A stretch of 23,883 bases of DNA from a virus. A program made the translations under genes and the position numbers. The notes below the pieces were generated by a model. It ran no database searches, was not told where the DNA came from, and was given only the letters and a program-made list of their open reading frames with translations. The stretch spans positions 1-23,883 of IMG/VR virus record IMGVR_UViG_3300044678_000102. One strand, written 5' to 3'. Below are positions 2,362 through 21,712 of the stretch, piece after piece; within the stretch, counting starts at the first letter, position 1, and every line of letters begins with the position of its first letter.

Positions 2362-3129
2362 TTAACTATAGTTAGCTGTAAATACCGCATGAATAGAAGT
2401 AGAGCTTCTGACAATATAGTCAATTCTATCTACTGCTCCGCTAGAAGTGCTTAGAGTAGGTGCTGTTCCACCAATAAAGTCATAGTAAGAGCCGTAAGCA
2501 AGAGTTCTTGAACCTGTGCCATCTTGACTGATAAAGATTGAACCTGTTTGACCAGCAGTTAGGTTAGATGGGTTAGCAAGAGTTCTGTTACCACCTAGAG
2601 TTACTGAGAAGTTATTAGCTACTGCAAAGTCTGGAGTAATAGTTGAGCCATCAGTAAGGGCTGAGATTGCACCTCGCTGTGCAGCAGTAAATGATTGAGC
2701 TACATCAGTCTTAGCTGTGTCAGCATCATAGGCTTGGACATCAGTACCAATTGTTAAGCCCAAAGAAGTCTTTAATGTTGCGCCTGACTCAACTACAAAG
2801 TTTGTGCCATTACCAATTACTACACCATTGTCTGTAGCAGTAAGACCAGCAATATCAGCTAACTGAGCATCAAAGGCTTGCACATCTGTACCAATAACAA
2901 GACCTAGGGCTGTTCTAGCAGTAGAAGCACTTGTAGCTCCTGTACCACCAGCAGTAAGGGGAATAGTATCTCCACTTGTACCAGCTTGTAAGTCTTTCAA
3001 GTCAGACATTAACTGTCGAATAGCATTATTAATACCGCTAGGCGCACAGCCTTCTGCAATATTAATACTGTTAATGTCAGTATTATTATCTGGGTTTACA
3101 TCAAATTCGGAGATTTTCGTTTTTGGCAT
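2362..3129 (-). CDS. Short tail fibre-like protein
   Basis: This 255-residue protein starts at ATG 3129 behind AAGGAAT, downstream of a good candidate promoter. The N terminus carries the INIAEGCAPSGINNAIRQLM segment (residues 22-41) that I associate with phage fibre N-terminal attachment regions. The middle has two copies of a short unit, LGLVIGTDVQAFDA at 75-88 and LGLTIGTDVQAYDA at 123-136, a layout typical of trimeric fibre shafts. The C-terminal third (about 155-255) is beta-rich and Gly/Ser/Thr-rich (TLGGNRTLANPSNLTAGQTG) and may form a tip domain. It lies 8 bases upstream of the large LamG fibre gene, and the two are probably cotranscribed. It may be the adaptor or shaft to which the larger fibre attaches; this pairing is inferred. 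Confidence 0.72.
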   Translation of the reverse strand: MPKTKISEFDVNPDNNTDINSINIAEGCAPSGINNAIRQLMSDLKDLQAGTSGDTIPLTAGGTGATSASTARTALGLVIGTDVQAFDAQLADIAGLTATDNGVVIGNGTNFVVESGATLKTSLGLTIGTDVQAYDADTAKTDVAQSFTAAQRGAISALTDGSTITPDFAVANNFSVTLGGNRTLANPSNLTAGQTGSIFISQDGTGSRTLAYGSYYDFIGGTAPTLSTSSGAVDRIDYIVRSSTSIHAVFTANYS

Positions 3130-3231: not shown

Positions 3232-5379
3232 TTACCTTTCTAATAATCCTTGTACTTGCTGCGATTCTCTTTCTCTTAGCAAATCGGATACTGCACCGCC
3301 ACCAGCAACACCTACAGGCGCACCATAAGTACCCTGTAAAGTTGGTGCGGAAAGACCTCTTGTAGCTTGGAAGGCTGAAACAGCACCTCTTGCTGGCTTA
3401 ACTAGACCTGTAGCTGCTGTAAGACCAGCACCAGTAGCGACATCACCACCAGCCATTGTCATTAAGCCAAGACCCTTCATTAAGTCCTCACCAAGTCTTG
3501 CAATTTCATAACCTGTCTTAGATGGGTTCATTGCTTGTGATGGTGTAACTGTCTTAGCTAAAGCAGTTCTAAACTCTCTCAAAGATTTTACTTGTTCTGG
3601 GGTAAATATCTCATTAGCCAATTGTGCGCCTTTGCCCATAATAAGCTCATCTACTTCCTTAACAATTTTAGATGCCGGCTTTACATTGCCTTGAGTGTCT
3701 TGCACCAATCTCATGTAAGCAGCTTGTCTAAACTCATTAAATTGCTCTGAGTTTTCCCCAAAGATGTCTTTGAACTTCTTAGCAACTCTTACAGCTACTT
3801 GGTTCTCACCAATTTTTGAAGTTCCAAATAGATAATTCATTGTTTCTACAGGAGTTAAATCCTTAGATGCAATCTTATCAATTATTTTCTGTGCATCAAC
3901 ATCAGCAGCTTTAGGGTCTACTTTAAACTTACTGTAGTAATCTTTAGCGATTCCTCTAGCATCTTTTAACTTAGCCAATTGGTCAGCATCACCAGAAGCC
4001 AATCCTTTAGTAATTGTGTCATCTAGCCAGTTATCAAACTCATTTCTAATTGTGCTAATAACTGTTCTATCTGTATCGTTAGCAGCAGTACCATAAAAAG
4101 AGTTTAGCTTCTTTCTTGTTGATTCTAAAGACTTTAAATTAATATCAGTAACTGTAACCCCATCCATCTTTGGAACAGCATTTTTAACCTCATTAAATGC
4201 TTTTACAGCAGAAGGGGTTAATTCTGGGTCAAATACTAAATTTTGTTCTTGAATAACTTTTTGAACTCTAAATGGCATTTCATCAACAGCAGCAACAGGA
4301 ATATTTAAAGCTCTTAAATCTGTAGCATCATAAGCCTTAGTAACTCCAGCCTTCATCTGTTGCTTTTGACCTCTAAGCATTTCATAGATAGTGCCACCAG
4401 CTTCAGTCTGGTTTGCAGCTCTAGCTTCTGGAGCAATTACTTGACCAACAAGACCAGCTTCTTCTTCAATAGCTTTTCTTTGTGCAAGGTCAAATCTTTG
4501 CATAATGTTTTGTGCTAACTTACCTCTGCCAGCATTTCTCATAGCTTCTTCACTAGCAATCTGTCTTACATCACCAGTAGATTGACCAAGAGTTAAAGGT
4601 ATTCTTCCTGTATCGGCTGCACTAGCTACAGATGTAATTCTGTCAGCTTCTTGTGCAAATTTAGAGCCTAAATTCTTGTAAGCATTGACAATAGCTTCTT
4701 TGCCTTTTTCTCCAAACTCATCAAAGTTAATGCCTGATTGTTTTAAGATGTCCTTAAACTGACCAGATACTTCTCCTGCTGAATTAAATACTGGCTTTCT
4801 AGCTCTTAAATAAGTAGCTAAAGCATCACCAACAACTTGACCACCTGCACCAAAAGCAGTATCTAAACCTACTTTAAAAGTGTCAAATTCTTGTTGAGAA
4901 CCTAACATCTGAGCAGCAGTTTCTTTTGCCGCAGATATTCCACCACTAGTTACTCCAGCAATACCAAGTCTAGTAGCTGCACTTTTAGCAACACTAGCAA
5001 GTTTGGCAGCAGGTATAAATTGAATAATATCGCCCACAAAACCGACTGCATCAACAGGAGATAAGCCTTGTTTGTTTGTATAGAATGGTTTTCCACCAAT
5101 AACTACATAAGGGTTACCCTTTTCATCCTCACCACCTTGAGAGCCTTCTACAGAGCTTAAAATGATGTCTTGTAAAGCTCTAGGGTCAGTAGTAGCCATA
5201 GTACCCATAAACATCTTAAAACTCTCAGGAAGGCTTACTTTAGCTCCTAGATACTCTGGTGTTTCAGATGTTGGTACTGGTAACTTTGCTATGCCAAAAT
5301 CTTCATTTGTCATCACTTGAGTTGATGGTTTTGCAACACCCTCAAATGGGTTTCCTTCTACTGGTGTAAGAGTAGCCAT
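3232..5379 (-). CDS. Large internal virion / DNA-ejection-type protein (715 aa)
   Basis: The start is ATG 5379, whose A is the last base of the upstream TAA (TAATG junction). I do not recognise a catalytic domain. A hydrophobic Ala/Gly-rich stretch spans roughly residues 110-165 (GFVGDIIQFIPAAKLASVAK), consistent with a membrane-active segment. The middle part (about 200-620) is a long charged helical region with motifs such as IPLTLGQSTGDVRQ near 255. The C terminus has another Ala/Gly-rich segment and ends in a charged tail (LLRERESQQVQGLLER). Its size, helical character and place at the end of a run of Ala/Gln-rich virion-type genes suggest one of the proteins ejected with the DNA. That role rests on gene order and composition, not on a recognised family. 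Confidence 0.65.
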   Translation of the reverse strand: MATLTPVEGNPFEGVAKPSTQVMTNEDFGIAKLPVPTSETPEYLGAKVSLPESFKMFMGTMATTDPRALQDIILSSVEGSQGGEDEKGNPYVVIGGKPFYTNKQGLSPVDAVGFVGDIIQFIPAAKLASVAKSAATRLGIAGVTSGGISAAKETAAQMLGSQQEFDTFKVGLDTAFGAGGQVVGDALATYLRARKPVFNSAGEVSGQFKDILKQSGINFDEFGEKGKEAIVNAYKNLGSKFAQEADRITSVASAADTGRIPLTLGQSTGDVRQIASEEAMRNAGRGKLAQNIMQRFDLAQRKAIEEEAGLVGQVIAPEARAANQTEAGGTIYEMLRGQKQQMKAGVTKAYDATDLRALNIPVAAVDEMPFRVQKVIQEQNLVFDPELTPSAVKAFNEVKNAVPKMDGVTVTDINLKSLESTRKKLNSFYGTAANDTDRTVISTIRNEFDNWLDDTITKGLASGDADQLAKLKDARGIAKDYYSKFKVDPKAADVDAQKIIDKIASKDLTPVETMNYLFGTSKIGENQVAVRVAKKFKDIFGENSEQFNEFRQAAYMRLVQDTQGNVKPASKIVKEVDELIMGKGAQLANEIFTPEQVKSLREFRTALAKTVTPSQAMNPSKTGYEIARLGEDLMKGLGLMTMAGGDVATGAGLTAATGLVKPARGAVSAFQATRGLSAPTLQGTYGAPVGVAGGGAVSDLLRERESQQVQGLLER

Positions 5380-8709: not shown

Positions 8710-9506
8710 TATCCGACTACTATATAATCAAAAGTTTTACCTGCGATTGAGTTAGCAGGATGACTAATTACTGCGCTTCCATTAGTTACTGAACTAATAT
8801 AAGGGTTTGTATAAATATTGCTTGTGTAACCATTGCTAGATAAGTAGCTCATGGTTGCTATTACTGATGGTGTTGCTGGTCTTGTAGGGCTTGTACCTGC
8901 TGCAAAATACTCAATATAAGTGCTTGTGCTACTTGGTCTCCATGCTAATTGAATATAATCATCTTTTTGCAAAGCAATAAAGAAGTTCATAGAACCAATG
9001 TCATGGCTATTGTCACCAGAGCCTTTTCTCTGAGAAATACCAAATTTACTATTAGAAGCTGCTATATCAGTACCATTTTTTCTAAACCAAATGTCCACAG
9101 TCTCATGGCTAGTTGTGCTATTCACTAATTGGACTGAAAACTGAATATTATATAAACCTGCAAACCCAGCAGTTAGCTTTGTGTTATCTACTAGACTCGC
9201 TCCTAAAGCATAGTCAGTAGCATTAAAGGTGATAATATTCACCCCAGTTGTATTGGGAGCTACTTGGTTTGTAGTATCTTGCACCGCCAAATAAGGATAG
9301 TAAGCAGTAGAAGATATATCATCTGTTGGAACAATAATAACTACTGAATCTACACCAATGCGAGCATCTGTAATAGTTGTAGTTGTTGCATTGCCTGTTG
9401 CTAAAGTTACAGTACCTGTATTATTTGTTTTGCCATTCATAATGCCATTGACTACTTCAGCAACACCTCGCTGGTCTGAGCCAAATGGGGGTAATAGTCT
9501 AAACAT
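8709..9506 (-). CDS. C1q/TNF-like jelly-roll virion protein
   Basis: The start ATG 9506 overlaps the nozzle gene's TAA by one base. The N terminus (MFRLLPPFGSDQRGVAEVVN) looks like a docking segment. Residues 25-100 form a Thr/Val-rich beta domain, and residues 105-222 look like a C1q-type jelly roll: LTAGFAGLYNIQFSVQLVNS, IWFRKNGTDIA, SMNFFIALQKDDYIQLAW, IEYFAA. The spacing of strands and the closing ATMSYL strand fit. The last 35 residues form a further small beta element. Such domains are used as trimeric decoration or fibre heads in phages. Following the nozzle gene, it could sit at the tail tip or on the head. Location on the virion is unknown. Confidence 0.68.
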   Translation of the reverse strand: MFRLLPPFGSDQRGVAEVVNGIMNGKTNNTGTVTLATGNATTTTITDARIGVDSVVIIVPTDDISSTAYYPYLAVQDTTNQVAPNTTGVNIITFNATDYALGASLVDNTKLTAGFAGLYNIQFSVQLVNSTTSHETVDIWFRKNGTDIAASNSKFGISQRKGSGDNSHDIGSMNFFIALQKDDYIQLAWRPSSTSTYIEYFAAGTSPTRPATPSVIATMSYLSSNGYTSNIYTNPYISSVTNGSAVISHPANSIAGKTFDYIVVG

Positions 9507-10954
9507 TATCTTCCACCCATAGGAACAATCTCGACATCAGCACCAATGGCTGTGTCCCAGTTAGCGCCTGTAGGATTAAATTGTAGTCTGTGGAATCTAC
9601 CCATGCTTCTCAATGAAACCCTGTTTTCTGAGTCTGCTGCTGTTGTTGAACCAAATACTACCTGTGTATTTAGTAAATCTCTTGAGAACACAGCTACATT
9701 GCATGAACCATTATCAACTATTGGCTGTACCATAGTTATCGCAGTTTTACGATTTTCAAGCGACAGTTCTCCTGTCTGGATTGTAGCAGTAGAATTTGCA
9801 CCTGTAAATGTAACTACTTTGTTTCCTCGGACACCTGCAAATAGCAGTTTTCCACCTAGCCAAATCCTTGAATCAAAGCTAGTTCCCAAAGCATCAATAG
9901 AGCTAGAAATAACATCTAAGCCCTCTAAAGTAGTAGATGGGCTAGAAGATGAGGCTATTCTGTCTACATCTGTAACACCACTAGACCACTTCTTAGTCTG
10001 AAAGTTATAAATCAATAGTCGGCTAACATTGCCACCCTGACCTTTGTGTGGGTAAGCCCAAATCACTAGGTTTTTAATAGGGTCAATGGCAGCAGACATA
10101 TTAAACAAATACTCCTCGTCTACATCTGAGAAGAAGAATCTGTCTACTTTCTCACCACCAATAGATACTACATTCTGTCCATCACAAGCATAGAAACCAT
10201 CATCTGCTAAGAAGAAAGTTAAGCCCTGATACTGAATAACTGAGTTAGCTTCATAACATCCTAGGTTTCTAGAGATATTGTCAAATTGGAATACTAATGG
10301 GCTACCAACATAAGTCATTCGGTAGATTGACCTATCCATCAAGACTAAGCCAAATTCACCACCGGTCACACCAACAATAGAGCCACCATCAGGAATCTCT
10401 TGGTAGTCTGACTGAGTTGTAGCTGAGTCAGTCCATGAAGTCTCATCATTTAAAGCAGACCACTTAACCCTAAAAGGTAATGAAGAACTGACATGACCTG
10501 TAACTACAAAGTCCCTAACTACTGTTACAAATCTAGAAGTAGGTGCATCAGCAGCCAAATCAGCCCATGCTGTAGAAGTTCCTAATAACCATCCTTGTAG
10601 CTTATCTGCACCATTTGCAGCTATAACCCTGTTACCAAACTGGGTAAATCTCCATCTTTGGTCTGTAGGTGTTGCATAAGTAGCACCAGATACATCATCT
10701 AATGACATATCAGTAGAATCTAGCTTATATAAATTAGTCTGGCTTCCGGCAAATATAGTGGTACTTCCATCAGGGTTTTTACCAGCTACTACATTGTTTA
10801 ATGGTTCTGAAGCTGCCTGTGTATAGTCCACAACAGAAGGAATACCACCATAGCCAATAGCTCTAGAGTAAACATTCTCTGCCTTTACCAATGCACCAGT
10901 AATTGATGGTTGGTCTGGTAGCCACTCTCCAAAGGTTATGCGCTGATTTGCCAT
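9506..10954 (-). CDS. Beta-propeller tail nozzle / P22 gp10-like stabilisation protein
   Basis: It starts at ATG 10954, 19 bases inside the preceding gene. Features in the 482 residues fit the tail-hub family (P22 gp10, T7 gp12 and SU10 nozzle type): an N-terminal ITFGEWLPDQPSITGALVKA with a Pro-rich arm, then repeated blades such as TTIFAGSQTNLYKLD (65-79), GNRVIAANGADKLQGW, FVVTGHVSSSLPFRVKWS, FGLVLMDRSIYRMTYVG, LTFFLADDGFYACDGQNVVS and LVIWAYPHKG, and a C-terminal beta domain (FHRLQFNPTGANWDTAIGAD). These are the strand repeats of a propeller. It would extend the tail below the adaptor ring. The family call is based on fold pattern and gene order, with no sequence search. Confidence 0.75.
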   Translation of the reverse strand: MANQRITFGEWLPDQPSITGALVKAENVYSRAIGYGGIPSVVDYTQAASEPLNNVVAGKNPDGSTTIFAGSQTNLYKLDSTDMSLDDVSGATYATPTDQRWRFTQFGNRVIAANGADKLQGWLLGTSTAWADLAADAPTSRFVTVVRDFVVTGHVSSSLPFRVKWSALNDETSWTDSATTQSDYQEIPDGGSIVGVTGGEFGLVLMDRSIYRMTYVGSPLVFQFDNISRNLGCYEANSVIQYQGLTFFLADDGFYACDGQNVVSIGGEKVDRFFFSDVDEEYLFNMSAAIDPIKNLVIWAYPHKGQGGNVSRLLIYNFQTKKWSSGVTDVDRIASSSSPSTTLEGLDVISSSIDALGTSFDSRIWLGGKLLFAGVRGNKVVTFTGANSTATIQTGELSLENRKTAITMVQPIVDNGSCNVAVFSRDLLNTQVVFGSTTAADSENRVSLRSMGRFHRLQFNPTGANWDTAIGADVEIVPMGGR

Positions 10955-11904
10955 TGTTCATTTCCACTTGTTGTAGCAGTCCAAGTTTCTGACCCTGCTG
11001 TTAAATCTGTCCAAGATTCATTGCCTGCTGTGCCATCTGTCCAGTTAGGACTTTCTGGTGTTTCTGGTGTCCAAGTCTCATTACCAATACTATCTGGACT
11101 CCAATTATCGCCAAATATATTACCTAAACACCTGATAGTAGCTGAGTTGCTAATTGAGCCTGATGCACTAAATACTGCATTTGCTGCAATTGATACTGTC
11201 GCAATGCCTCTAATCTCTGCGCTACCTGAGTACTCAACACCGCCCAGCGCTGTAACTGTAGATAATCCATTGATTGCTCCGGTAGAAGTTCTAATCCTTA
11301 TGCCATCAGCAGATATAGTTCCACTAGCAGAAATAGAGCCTGATGCGCTTAATACCCTAGCACCATTAGCTGTAACAGTAGCTGTACTTGATATTGAGCC
11401 TGCACCACTATAAATTCTGAATCCGCTTGCCAAAACAGTCGCTGTTGAGTTTACAGAACCTGTAGCAGTCCTTATCCTAAATGAGTCGCTTGATACTGTT
11501 GTAGAGCCTGTAATAGAGCCAGAACCACTATAAACAGCAAAAGTATTAGCTTCTAGTGTTCCATTGCCTGTAATTGAGCCACTAAAGAACATAATTCTAG
11601 AAGAATTGGCTGATACAGTTGCACTTGCTGTTACTGCACCAACACCTAATCTTTCTCTAAATCCACTAGCTGATACTGTGGCTTGAGAAGTAACACTTGC
11701 AGGATTTACAAAGTAAACAGTTACAGAGCCATTCCATAAAGCACTATCTAAAGACAGGTTAAGGCTGTCTATTGAGCCTATGCCATCTAAGGCTTCTAGT
11801 GTCCAGTTCCCTGTAACTCTGTCATCATACCAATCTAGGTCTAGAGAATAAACTAAATCATCTAGGCTTCCAAATTGGTCTAATTGCTCAAGAGTTAGTG
11901 GCAT
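10936..11904 (-). CDS. All-repeat beta-rich virion protein (31-, 20- and 10-residue repeats)
   Basis: The 322 residues start at ATG 11904 (TAATG overlap) and are almost entirely repeats. Residues 4-65 hold two copies of a 31-residue unit (TLEQLDQFGSLDDL and TLEALDGIGSIDSL). Residues 64-263 hold ten units of exactly 20 residues with the form (I/V)YSxSGSIxxxATVSAxGFR; this is visible in the DNA as a 60-base period. Residues 267-318 hold six units of exactly ten residues with Trp at 268, 278, 288, 298, 308 and 318 (GNESWTD type). The alternating small and hydrophobic residues suggest a beta-solenoid. Lying between a small virion protein and the nozzle gene, it is probably a tail or head fibre component. 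I do not recognise a named family. Confidence 0.72.
   Translation of the reverse strand: MPLTLEQLDQFGSLDDLVYSLDLDWYDDRVTGNWTLEALDGIGSIDSLNLSLDSALWNGSVTVYFVNPASVTSQATVSASGFRERLGVGAVTASATVSANSSRIMFFSGSITGNGTLEANTFAVYSGSGSITGSTTVSSDSFRIRTATGSVNSTATVLASGFRIYSGAGSISSTATVTANGARVLSASGSISASGTISADGIRIRTSTGAINGLSTVTALGGVEYSGSAEIRGIATVSIAANAVFSASGSISNSATIRCLGNIFGDNWSPDSIGNETWTPETPESPNWTDGTAGNESWTDLTAGSETWTATTSGNEQWQISA
10951..11106 (-). repeat. Six tandem 30-bp (10-residue) Trp repeats
   Basis: Residues 267-318 carry a Trp every ten residues within NxxW(T/S), such as GNETWTPETP, GNESWTDLTA and GSETWTATTS. The last copy lies partly in the overlap with the nozzle gene start. Confidence 0.85.
11116..11715 (-). 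repeat. Ten tandem 60-bp (20-residue) coding repeats
   Basis: Residues 64-263 of the all-repeat protein form ten 20-residue units with no insertion or deletion. Positions SGSI...ATVSA.GFR recur in each unit. DNA copies are diverged but keep the 60-base phase, for example the gagcc/gaacc ends every 60 bases between about 11340 and 11580. Confidence 0.85.
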
Positions 11905-12290
11905 TATGCCAAGGTGACTGACAAGTTACTAGAAGCAATCTTAAAGATGTCTCCTGTTGCAATAGCCTTAGAAACATCTAAAGCTGTATGAAATAACAGG
12001 TTGCCTGATGTTAAAGCATCATGGATACCAATAAAAGCTACAGTACCCCAATCAGCAGTACATTGTGGAAACTCTACTGCTGCGCTGTTTGTAGATACAC
12101 CATTGCTAGGTGCGCCAAAAGTAACCGCAACTCGAGCATAAGAACCGCCTGATACTTCAGTACCAGAGCCAGCATCTGTAGGGTCAGAAGTGAATAAACC
12201 TACATAAACTGTAGTTGGAGTTGTATAGCTTGTATTGCGGAGAACTGCATTAATTACTGCATTTTCCAAGTAGTTTGACATTTCAGCCAT
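11904..12290 (-). CDS. Small conserved-type virion protein
   Basis: This 128-residue protein starts at ATG 12290 behind AAGGAAATATC. It has the pattern I recall from a family of phage virion proteins often labelled tail fibre protein: an N-terminal helix (NYLENAVINAVLRNTSYTTP), the strand VYVGLFTSDPTDAGSGTEV at about 28-46, SYARVAVTFGAP near 50-61, and a C-terminal strand set ending FKIASSNLSVTLA. The fold is expected to be beta-rich. It follows the adaptor gene and precedes the all-repeat protein, to which it is joined by a TAATG overlap. It may connect repeat fibres to the virion. The label is descriptive and its exact place is not known. Confidence 0.65.
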   Translation of the reverse strand: MAEMSNYLENAVINAVLRNTSYTTPTTVYVGLFTSDPTDAGSGTEVSGGSYARVAVTFGAPSNGVSTNSAAVEFPQCTADWGTVAFIGIHDALTSGNLLFHTALDVSKAIATGDIFKIASSNLSVTLA

Positions 12291-12301
12291 GATATTTCCT
12301 T
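12286..12301 (-). promoter_or_regulatory. Ribosome binding and start region identical to that at 8694-8709
   Basis: The 16 bases AAGGAAATATCATGGC include the Shine-Dalgarno and the ATG at 12290 and match the start region of the Gln/Ala-rich gene exactly. Confidence 0.5.
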
Positions 12302-12920
12302 ATCTAGATGTTACTTTCATTTGTAAAGGCACTCCAGAATACTCTGAGCCTTCGTCTGATTCGTTGATGTTGTTTACTGCTCGGTCATACATACTAATCC
12401 ACATCTGCACTCTGGCATCATTGATTAGGTATGGTTCTGCTTCAGCTAATGCACCATATAACAAGGCATCAAAGTAATTAGCTAGAAATACATTGCTTGT
12501 ATTAGCATCTGACAAGACTGTAGGCTTGCCATAGTAAAGAATCTCTAAAGTGTAAGCAGTATCAGGCACAGGAGCAAATAAGAACTCAGCAGCCAATACT
12601 GTGTAATAAAATGGTTTGCCAGACTCATCTGCCCTAGCATCTCTTGTGAAGGCACTAGGGGACAGATAAGATACAGGCATCCTTGGGTTACCTTGAATAT
12701 ATAAATCTCTTACTTCTAAGAAGTCTGTAGGCAATGCTACCTTACCATCACCAGCCACAGTAGGAGTAGTTGCTGACTTCAACATCATTCTAGTTCTGAG
12801 TTCTCTAGCCATCCGAGTTTCAGCTAATCGAATAAAGTCAGGAATCTGAGTTGTCAAATCTGACCTACCTAAGTAGTTAGCTACTGTAGTTTTAAGGTCT
12901 GAGTAATTTGTAAAAGCCAT
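12300..12920 (-). CDS. Head-tail adaptor (connector) protein
   Basis: The 206 residues start at ATG 12920. The N terminus has the helical pattern of short-tail phage adaptors: YSDLKTTVANYLGRSDLTTQ, then IPDFIRLAETRMARELRTRM. This is followed by LPTDFLEVRDLYI (about 59-71), a beta segment (YYTVLAAEFLFAPVP, YTLEILYYGKP) and a helical tail (FDALLYGALAEAEPYL, then MYDRAVNNINESDE). This arrangement fits the gp6-like adaptor family that forms a ring under the portal and provides the platform for the nozzle. Gene order (capsid, then adaptor, then nozzle) agrees. I am confident of the family type; subunit number is not visible here. Confidence 0.77.
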   Translation of the reverse strand: MAFTNYSDLKTTVANYLGRSDLTTQIPDFIRLAETRMARELRTRMMLKSATTPTVAGDGKVALPTDFLEVRDLYIQGNPRMPVSYLSPSAFTRDARADESGKPFYYTVLAAEFLFAPVPDTAYTLEILYYGKPTVLSDANTSNVFLANYFDALLYGALAEAEPYLINDARVQMWISMYDRAVNNINESDEGSEYSGVPLQMKVTSR

Positions 12921-12928
12921 AATTCCCT

Positions 12929-13555
12929 CTAATTGATGTCATGCCATCCATAAGTATAATTTCCGACATGACCTATCTCTTGAGACAAATCATGGTCTAT
13001 AAAAGTATCAATTCCTACATCTTTTGCCTTGATACAGAAGTAAATATCCTCACCTAAGAGCTTGTTCTCAGGCAATAATTCAAAGAAGAACCAAGGTTTA
13101 GGGATAGCATTTAGAGTCTCTTTGCTTATCAGCATGACTCCACAGCCTATTCCATCAGCCTGTTGTATTCCTGTCTTATTCTTAGAAGATATTTGCTTCC
13201 AGTTGCAAGTTCCATCTTCATCTATTTCTAGTGTCTTTGCAGTCGCTTTAACAGGGCTTGAGCGAGTTGTAGCATTTACCCCTATTATCCCCTTACCATG
13301 AGCAATTAATCGCTCTAGGGTGTCTTTAGGGAAGCGCATATCGGCATCTATAAATAGAACATAGTCTGCACCTTCTTCTAGGGCAGATTCCACCATATTG
13401 TTTCTTTGGTCAAATATCAGAGTACCCATAGAGGTATAAAGATTGACTTCATGCTCTGTATTTCTAGCAATATGATTGACCATTCTAGCCAAATCAAATG
13501 CTGTTCCTACTTCCATCTGTCCCCTAGCTGGGATACATATAGCAATAGTAGCCAT
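12929..13555 (-). CDS. GT-A-fold glycosyltransferase within the head gene cluster
   Basis: The 208-residue protein begins at ATG 13555 (TAATG overlap). Residues 1-72 show a nucleotide-sugar Rossmann-like half: TIAICIPARGQ at 3-13, then DQRNNMVESALEEGADYVLFIDADMRFP (49-76) with a DAD metal site at 70-72. Later landmarks are GIGCGVMLISKETL (acceptor side loop) and GEDIYFCIKAKDVGI, where the ED could serve as the catalytic base region, and it ends DHDLSQEIGHVG with a C-terminal His. It probably transfers a sugar from a nucleotide donor in the host cytoplasm. The acceptor could be a virion protein, since it is cotranscribed with capsid and adaptor genes, but DNA or host glycans are possible. No membrane segment is seen. 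Confidence 0.78.
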   Translation of the reverse strand: MATIAICIPARGQMEVGTAFDLARMVNHIARNTEHEVNLYTSMGTLIFDQRNNMVESALEEGADYVLFIDADMRFPKDTLERLIAHGKGIIGVNATTRSSPVKATAKTLEIDEDGTCNWKQISSKNKTGIQQADGIGCGVMLISKETLNAIPKPWFFFELLPENKLLGEDIYFCIKAKDVGIDTFIDHDLSQEIGHVGNYTYGWHDIN

Positions 13556-19803: not shown

Positions 19804-19832
19804 AATATACAACACTTTTACTAATCTAGCAA
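19804..19832 (-). promoter_or_regulatory. Candidate sigma70 promoter upstream of the terminase genes
   Basis: On the minus strand there is a -35 TTGCTA (19832-19827), a 17-base spacer and a -10 TATATT (19809-19804). These match consensus at four and five of six positions. It overlaps the last codons of the upstream gene and would start RNA near 19797, about 30 bases before ATG 19768. Confidence 0.42.
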
Positions 19833-21191
19833 ACCTTGATTCAATAATGACTTTCTTCTAAGAAGGTCTGCACCTTCATTCCATATCAAGGCATCATCTG
19901 GGTTTATATCTAATCCAAACTTTCCTTGCTTAAATGGGAAATTTTCTAATCTTTGCTCTGGAGTCAAATCTATTCTTGTTTGGGCTAGTCTTGCTTCAGC
20001 CTCTCCAGCTAAATTGTTATACATTTCAAATGGACTGTAAGGAGTAGACCTTTTATCCAGACCATATAAAGTAACTAAATTTTGCAGCTCATTGTTTGGC
20101 TGTCCACCTACATCAGATACTATTTCCATAGTTTTCTTGTCTATAGGAGACATATCTAACTTTTCAAACATTTCTTTTACGGTTTTAGCTCTATCCTCAA
20201 AAGGGATTGAAGATGGAAGTCTATCTATCTCATCTCTTATCATTAATACTTTTTTAGCCAATAAAGCATCATCCTGTTGATTGAAGTAGTTAAAGTGACC
20301 GCCTCTATTCCAATCTTCTATCTTTTGAACACCATGCTGTAATTCATGGATTAGTGCGCTTTTCTGTTCTTTTGCATACTCAGACCCTGTTGCACCTTCT
20401 GGTCTAGGTGATACTGTGTATTCATTAGTTCTTTGATTGAAGGATGCGCCACCTACTTTTGGCTTACCCATAAAATCTCTTGTAAAAACAGCCTCATCAA
20501 CACCAACTGGAGCATTTGATAGCGCTCCACCATAATTACCATAAAGCTCTTTATGACCTAAAACATTTTGCATCTGTGGATAACTTGCAAGCTCTTTAGC
20601 TGTACCATAAGACAATACAGGAATATCTTTATCTGAGATTTCTTGTCTCCAATTGTTATCTAAACCTCTAACAGTACCTGTTTTTTCCCAAATTTCTTCT
20701 GGAGTTTTGCCAGCCTTTTCCATTTTTGATGCTTCAAATGCTGCTTTTTTATTAAAGTTTTTAGCACTTGCTCCAATAAAAATCTGTGATGGATTGTAAG
20801 CACTTGCATAGTCAATGACTTTTGCTCCAGTAGCCATTGGGTTTCCAGTAATAGTCTGCACTAACTTATCGCTTAACTTTGTTGCACCAGCACCCACAAA
20901 TGGGCTTGCTATGGCAGCATAGCTAAATGGTTCACCAGTTTGATAGCCTTCCATATAAGACCTATTTCTAGGGTCTAATACAGTTAAGTTTTCTCTTTGT
21001 GGTAAACCAGAAGCACCTTCAGCAAATCCAGCTTCTCTTGGCATTGCTGTTTTACCGGTTATTGCATCAATAAAAGCTGTAGGGTTTACTAAAAATCTGG
21101 CTGCATTTGTAGGAACATCCAATAAGCCTTGTAACTTATCACCTAATAGTGATAGATACTCGCTTTTGCGGATGTCATCAAGCAATGCCAT
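19821..21191 (-). CDS. Polyvalent-type protein with LPD23-like region and HExxH zincin motif
   Basis: The 456-residue protein starts at ATG 21191 (TAATG overlap). After an N-terminal helical and Ala/Gly part (SYAAIASPFVGAGATKLSDK near 90-109), residues 137-190 resemble the large polyvalent protein-associated domain 23 (FIGASAKNFN ... IWEKTGTVRGLDNNWRQEIS). Residues 279-300 carry ALIHELQHGVQKIEDWNRGG with HELQH at 282-286, a zinc-metallopeptidase HExxH signature as found in phage polyvalent proteins. A third metal ligand is not certain. It lies before the terminase genes and could be a packaged toxin-like or processing enzyme. Substrate unknown. Confidence 0.68.
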   Translation of the reverse strand: MALLDDIRKSEYLSLLGDKLQGLLDVPTNAARFLVNPTAFIDAITGKTAMPREAGFAEGASGLPQRENLTVLDPRNRSYMEGYQTGEPFSYAAIASPFVGAGATKLSDKLVQTITGNPMATGAKVIDYASAYNPSQIFIGASAKNFNKKAAFEASKMEKAGKTPEEIWEKTGTVRGLDNNWRQEISDKDIPVLSYGTAKELASYPQMQNVLGHKELYGNYGGALSNAPVGVDEAVFTRDFMGKPKVGGASFNQRTNEYTVSPRPEGATGSEYAKEQKSALIHELQHGVQKIEDWNRGGHFNYFNQQDDALLAKKVLMIRDEIDRLPSSIPFEDRAKTVKEMFEKLDMSPIDKKTMEIVSDVGGQPNNELQNLVTLYGLDKRSTPYSPFEMYNNLAGEAEARLAQTRIDLTPEQRLENFPFKQGKFGLDINPDDALIWNEGADLLRRKSLLNQGLLD

Positions 21192-21712
21192 TATTTCTTA
21201 ACCCCATAAAAGTATAAGTCTTTAGTCTGACCATTAACAGAAAACTCATATTCTGAGAACATACTGTCTAAATCAAACTTTTCTTTAAAATCTGCTTCTG
21301 TCAGGTTCTTGTAGTAATCCCACTCTACTAGAGGAGCATCTGCTGGGCTTGTTTTCTTAGTTCCATGCTCTGCTCTACCAGTTGTAGCACAAGACATAAC
21401 TACTAGCTTATTAGCCATACGGTGCATATTTTCAAAAGTAGCTATCCAGTAAGGATTATGCTCAAAGCACTCACAGGAAATAACTGTATCAAAGCTATCT
21501 TTAGGAGCTTGCATATCCTGACCTTGGCATACTAGGTCTACTCCCTTGCCTTCTCCTACATCTATTCCTAAGTAATCGCAGTCTGTAAAGAACTGCCTTA
21601 CCGAGCCATTGATGTCTAGGCTTCCTATTTCTAGGACTTTAGCCTTGTTAAATGACTCTGGGAACTTATCCCTGACCGATTTAACAAAGTCAAACTGTTG
21701 TTGGTGTGCCAC
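21191..21712 (-). CDS. SAM-dependent methyltransferase, class I fold
   Basis: The protein starts at GTG 21712, whose G closes the upstream TAG (TAGTG). The 173 residues have motif I VLEIGSLDINGSVR (26-39), the acidic end of strand two YLGIDVGEGKG (47-57), and strand four SFDTVISCECFEHN (73-86) with the usual post-motif. These positions suit binding of S-adenosylmethionine. There is no DPPY or similar DNA-amino-methyltransferase motif, and the ECFEH end is more like small-molecule or glycan methyltransferases. The substrate is not identifiable. It sits next to the DUF6496-like and HExxH genes in a compact operon. Confidence 0.78.
   Translation of the reverse strand: MAHQQQFDFVKSVRDKFPESFNKAKVLEIGSLDINGSVRQFFTDCDYLGIDVGEGKGVDLVCQGQDMQAPKDSFDTVISCECFEHNPYWIATFENMHRMANKLVVMSCATTGRAEHGTKKTSPADAPLVEWDYYKNLTEADFKEKFDLDSMFSEYEFSVNGQTKDLYFYGVKK

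Follow-up and report, generated by a model that had tools for sequence, protein, structure and literature searches.

The closest described counterparts of the repeat protein reported here come from several phages and one domain family. For podophage GP4, solved chains are available for gp80 ("fiber I"; PDB 8jou) and the tail collar; gp80 is homologous to the product of the gene neighboring ours, but none of the solved chains corresponds to the repeat protein itself. In phage SU10, Trp839, Trp847, and Trp857 of the fiber-dock loop form a pseudo-threefold star that holds the trimeric short fiber (PMC9509320). Both this loop and the C-terminal Trp ladder described below place a Trp every 8–10 residues in a tail protein, and both come from phages of SU10 type. 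However, the loop has three Trp in a threefold star and lies inside the nozzle, whereas our ladder belongs to a separate protein, the family of which has four or six Trp. The DUF2807 putative adhesin domain (PF10988) has beta repeats of approximately 20 residues, as in our protein, but the similarity is under the gathering cut-off, and the domain was described from cellular proteins rather than phage tails. In Burkholderia phage BcepIL02, the gene right after gp80 encodes gp56, which has a strong 20-residue period (z = 8) but differs in having no Trp ladder, a different N-terminus, and no significant profile similarity. Methylophilales phage Venkman gp51 (QLF88126) and a protein of Podoviridae sp. 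ctXG6705 (UOF77505) share our 20-residue consensus and have ladders with four and six Trp, respectively, but start with M[YF]GxxxFSQxPFSxL and are not encoded beside gp80. The proteins of C72C1 (WJE88089; four Trp) and ct2t2046 (UOF77096; six Trp, 35% identical) are encoded between gp80 and the nozzle, as is ours, and have an LD-rich N-terminal module, 20-residue units, and a ladder; they differ in having fewer 20-residue units.

The stretch analyzed here (hereafter, the window; 23,883 bp) belongs to a short-tailed phage: it encodes a Terminase_3 large subunit along with a portal, a major capsid protein, and an adaptor of SU10 type. A minus-strand gene at 10936–11904, starting with ATG, encodes the repeat protein of 322 aa. 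The first-pass annotation had this interval right but gave no strand; the plus strand has stops throughout there. It had also placed a small virion protein on one side of the gene and the nozzle on the other, which agrees with the flanking genes that we identified, all on the minus strand. Upstream is a homolog of gp80 (11904–12290; Pfam PF23140, "Podophage GP4 fiber I protein gp80," E = 1.1e-49), which also matches chain 8jou_a of phage GP4 (E = 2e-11) and phrog_240, and further upstream is the SU10-type adaptor (12300–12920; Pfam PF24175, E = 1.2e-38). Downstream is a tail nozzle homolog (9506–10954; 8zkk_O "nozzle gp16," E = 7e-15; 9nwi_Y; phrog_3287). The genes are tightly packed: the start codon of the repeat gene shares one base with the gp80 stop codon (TAATG), and the last 19 nt at its 3′ side are shared with the nozzle gene. 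The repeat protein matches no Pfam family and no PHROG, and no Rfam or tRNA feature was found in the window.

Three repeat regimes can be recognized along the protein. The N-terminal module (11719–11904, minus strand) has two 31-residue units (residues 1–31 and 32–62) that are 45% identical to each other, with the pattern LxLEQLDxFGSLDDLxxSLD. It is followed by a beta part, the proposed shaft, with ten 20-residue units (11119–11718, minus strand; residues 63–262). Aligned in constant register with the ladder, these beta-type units have the consensus SGSITATATVTADGIRIRTG. The C-terminal Trp ladder has six 10-residue units after a GDN motif (10939–11118, minus strand; residues 263–322; consensus WTDVSAGSET), with Trp at residues 268, 278, 288, 298, 308, and 318. 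Compared with residue shuffles of the same segments, the periodicity z-scores are 7.3 for lag 31, 10.9 for lag 20, and 6.9 for lag 10, so these periods are not due to chance; the ladder segment is as periodic at lag 20 (z = 7.1) as at lag 10. The counts of units in the first-pass annotation and the lack of any indel in the 20- and 10-residue sections are correct, but the repeats that it called exact are exact in period only, and their sequences are degenerate. For the protein, neighboring 20-residue units of the beta part are approximately 34% identical (lag 20) and the 10-residue units of the ladder 38% (lag 10); the corresponding DNA identities are 46% and 52%. Tandem Repeats Finder detected no 60- or 30-nt array at this gene. 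The low identity and the lack of such an array indicate that the repeats are old and diverged, which excludes recent DNA slippage as their origin.

The same architecture is widespread among viruses. Five scans of viral contigs, each with a different family member as the query, gave 14, 294, 82, 76, and 60 partly overlapping hits. Counting each distinct complete ORF with at least three Trp spaced by ten residues gave 193, a few of the shortest being chance ORFs; thus, approximately 190 distinct viral ORFs combine the 20-residue region with a Trp ladder. We defined the family by 20-residue beta units in constant register and a C-terminal G[DE]xW ladder with a Trp every 10 residues, a description that the window protein fits. 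Two classes can be distinguished. Class 1, to which the window protein belongs, has an LD-rich N-terminal module in one or two copies and a gene after gp80, mostly directly before the nozzle. The place after gp80 is kept in nearly all class-1 relatives, and among those not cut by a contig end, most have the nozzle gene directly downstream. Class 2 (Venkman gp51 and ctXG6705) has a different N-terminus, and its gene lies elsewhere in the fiber module. Some members match PHROGs of unknown function, and others carry meaningless annotations, such as "serine-rich adhesin" for ctXG6705. A scan of genome contigs for prophage or host relatives found none. So many viral ORFs show this architecture, and phage genomes that are circular or from culture also encode it (Venkman gp51 and C72C1), that the suggestion of a new kind of fiber is too strong. 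The best reading is a widespread, uncharacterized family of tail appendages built by a clear rule of 20-residue steps, which would be a variant of phage fibers rather than a new category. In three relatives (L171, 3938–4585; L177, 762–1409; L253, 3932–4771), insertions of YWELGY/GYFVIGY type were observed in the ladder region, and a similar YWEYGY motif is also present at the N-terminus of the first two.

Relatives keep the regular repeats, and their lengths differ in a restricted manner. All complete closest relatives (68–100% identity) have 321–322 residues, indicating that the number of repeats does not change readily over short evolutionary distances. Elsewhere among the relatives, the beta part gained or lost 20–80 residues, always in multiples of 20, as seen in near-relative pairs with differences of −20 (L129/L112), −80 (L084/L036), +80 (L222/L209), and −40−40 (L161/L115), as well as one of 20+60 residues. 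Of these relatives, L084 is 217 aa long and L222 is 404 aa long. The prediction that the length can change by repeat gain or loss is therefore borne out across relatives, in 20-residue steps only. Indels in the ladder are also exactly 20 residues, corresponding to two Trp units (L128/L118; L246/L247; L081, L085/L086); L118 and L128 are 99% identical outside one such insertion. The ladder has four (72 ORFs) or six (109 ORFs) Trp in 181 of the 193 distinct ORFs. The other 12 were scored as having three Trp: eight belong to the family but have four Trp with one spacing irregular, and the remaining four are short unrelated ORFs. In a tree built without the ladder, parsimony placed 13 switches between four and six Trp, at least five of which are on supported branches. 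The exception to the even number is a remote relative, ctjtQ328, with three Trp. From the even ladders and the 20-residue ladder indels, we infer that the Trp period of 10 residues is nested within the very 20-residue unit from which the shaft is built. These two observations disfavor a period that truly halves along the chain, as had been noted initially; one 20-residue quantum with two Trp per unit is a better description.

The gene following gp80 is often periodic in other phages as well. In 14 of 19 phage loci, it is the most 20-periodic ORF of the locus (expected 1.8; binomial p ~4e-11, which is indicative only, as non-coding ORFs are among the decoys and family members account for two of the loci). 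This pattern covers Lessievirus, Ittyvirus, Namazuvirus, PBC5-type phages, Wolominvirus, and Zobellviridae, and is weaker in PVJ1, a Bacillota phage that carries the repeats as a fusion with a Mu gp48-like baseplate domain. Exceptions are ACP17, Quesadilla, DB2, and ctvy9321, as well as Lietuvens, where the gene ranks second. As operon neighbors, the repeat protein and the gp80-type protein may be partners, as this association suggests, with putative physical contact. Shared ancestry of these partners beyond the ladder-bearing family is unproven, because profile comparisons (hhalign) of the family with the partners of BcepIL02 and OspP_OH were not significant and a reversed control for MEP402 gp62 scored almost as well as the forward sequence (E = 2.8e-9 vs. 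2.6e-11), such that this homology was not accepted. For ctjtQ328, the forward match (7.8e-12) was far better than the reversed one (2.3e-5). BcepIL02 gp56 was deposited as "virion-associated" and belongs to phrog_19041 ("virion structural protein"), with which the window protein has no HMM match and no significant profile similarity. As a separate observation, MEP402 gp62, the repeat protein encoded right after gp80 (L320, 3256–4071; phrog_6977, minor tail protein), and gp61, from the following gene (4074–4379), both end in VKxxGxWK repeats rather than a 10-residue Trp ladder.

Purifying selection acts unevenly along the protein. The overall dN/dS against relatives is 0.21–0.27, with the strongest constraint in the N-terminal module (0.06–0.14), the weakest in the shaft (0.25–0.39), and an intermediate level in the ladder (0–0.25). 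This gradient fits an anchored shaft in which the length register matters more than the sequence, with a conserved end and no fast-changing receptor tip. Structure prediction was less informative. The AF2 monomer model of the window protein has a mean pLDDT of 48, with periodic strands and a ladder below 50, and that of the relative L084 has a mean of 49, with approximately 80 for the N-terminal module and approximately 74 for a part of the ladder that lacks secondary structure (45 and 29 sequences, respectively). The outcome is low confidence rather than clear disorder throughout. At these pLDDT values, the best Foldseek hit (E = 0.36) is meaningless, and a sequence search of solved structures in the PDB for the repeat proteins gave nothing convincing. 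At this level of confidence, the proposed 20-residue beta-solenoid turning into a Trp ladder is conjectural.

Taken together, we consider it about an even bet (probability approximately 0.5) that the protein is an oligomeric beta-shaft tail appendage of a podophage, anchored by its N-terminus at the collar formed by gp80 and the adaptor–nozzle junction. From gene position and constraint, the 31-residue module would anchor the protein where the adaptor, the gp80-type protein, and the nozzle meet. The 20-residue units would build a shaft rich in beta structure that is probably an oligomer, most likely a trimer. The observed quantum may reflect that one unit corresponds to one structural layer, such that only gains and losses of whole units are tolerated. 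The ladder would keep to this 20-residue spacing, each layer holding two Trp. Rather than acting as a variable tip for receptor binding, it may be a conserved cap or offer a surface on which another virion protein docks. With models at pLDDT 48 and 49, the fold, the oligomeric state, and the role of the ladder are only inferred. The placement of class-2 relatives elsewhere in the fiber module argues against an appendage at the gp80 collar. The three Trp of ctjtQ328 and the absence of JC1 gp54, a positional counterpart, from the virion proteins tabulated for that phage also count against this reading.

Other explanations place the emphasis on different parts of these data. The ladder may act as a docking peptide for trimeric fibers, similar to the SU10 fiber-dock loop, given the comparable Trp spacing (8–10 residues) at the corresponding place in the tail of a phage of related type, the part of the L084 ladder modeled with higher confidence but no secondary structure, and the presence of the ladder in two classes with different N-termini. 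We regard this as unlikely, if worth keeping in view: ladders of four or six Trp, in steps of two, are at odds with a threefold star, the SU10 loop belongs to the nozzle rather than to a separate protein, and the ladder has a pLDDT below 50 in the window model. The association with gp80 could instead point to a scaffold or ruler, in which the repeat chain extends alongside a gp80 fibril and the number of units sets the number of gp80 copies per fiber, each 20-residue unit (or pair) binding gp80 by beta-strand exchange. The 14 of 19 loci, including the Bacillota phage with the Mu gp48-type fusion, are consistent with such a role. So are the ten gp80 chains of the GP4 entry 8jou, equal to the number of our 20-residue units, although this match of one number may be coincidental. 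In addition, 8JOU_g was reported to form a fibril joining an adhesin to the nozzle collar in the LSH1 paper (PMC13243795), and chain g would be gp80 according to the chain lettering. No PDB chain matches the repeat proteins, and class-2 members are not beside gp80, so we judge the ruler improbable. Its extension is doubtful: an unrecognized two-component appendage, occurring in podophages as well as certain other tailed phages, whose gp80-type protein would assemble along a quantized 20-residue chain, the unit number would encode fiber length or gp80 copies, and the paired-Trp ladder would close or dock the end.

A monomeric beta-solenoid adhesin similar to the DUF2807 "head GIN" domain, with 20-residue coils capped by the Trp ladder, seems equally doubtful. 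The family profile matches the putative-adhesin PDB chains 4opw (E = 0.007) and 3ljy (E = 0.016), and for MEP402 gp62 a DUF2807 match falls short of the threshold (E = 0.0035; 17.6 vs. 24.2 bits). However, that match is under the Pfam cut-off, the window protein has no Pfam hit, and repetitive sequences inflate such profile scores, as the reversed MEP402 control demonstrated. AF2 generally models solenoids well, and its pLDDT for the window protein is only 48. A protein that is no virion component at all, being either disordered or a folding or assembly factor, is very improbable. Low AF2 confidence would agree with it, as would JC1 gp54, the positional counterpart of BcepIL02 gp56, which is absent from the mass-spectrometry table of JC1 virions (PMC9144972). 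Against it stand the strict unit length, the purifying selection, the gene position in the tail module, and the virion-associated label of the Burkholderia counterpart.

In many environmental viruses, the annotation of short-tailed phages has a gap between the nozzle gene and the gene for the gp80-type protein. Should both the 20-residue quantum and the pairing with gp80 hold, the genes in this gap could be named as tail-appendage proteins, with lengths readable from the sequence, and the simple rule to expect would be that only whole 20-residue steps assemble. The paired-Trp ladder would represent a new capping or docking motif.

Other genes were also noted. A tail fiber gene of the window (2362–3129, minus strand; phrog_24210 and phrog_4757) is a candidate for the receptor-binding fiber of this phage. 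A glycosyltransferase-like gene (12929–13555, minus strand; Pfam Anp1, E = 8e-7, just above the cut-off) lies between the capsid and adaptor genes. Beside the terminase genes, a 456-aa protein (19821–21191, minus strand) contains large polyvalent protein domain 23 (LPD23; E = 8e-11) and an HELQH motif. A methyltransferase-like gene with a GTG start is found at 21191–21712 (minus strand; Methyltransf_23, E = 5e-6, just below the cut-off). In Venkman, gp55 (L015, 1116–3308; 730 aa) has a very strong 17-residue period (z = 19.5), and its C-terminal end is peptidase_S74-like by eye, an ordinary phage adhesin pattern.
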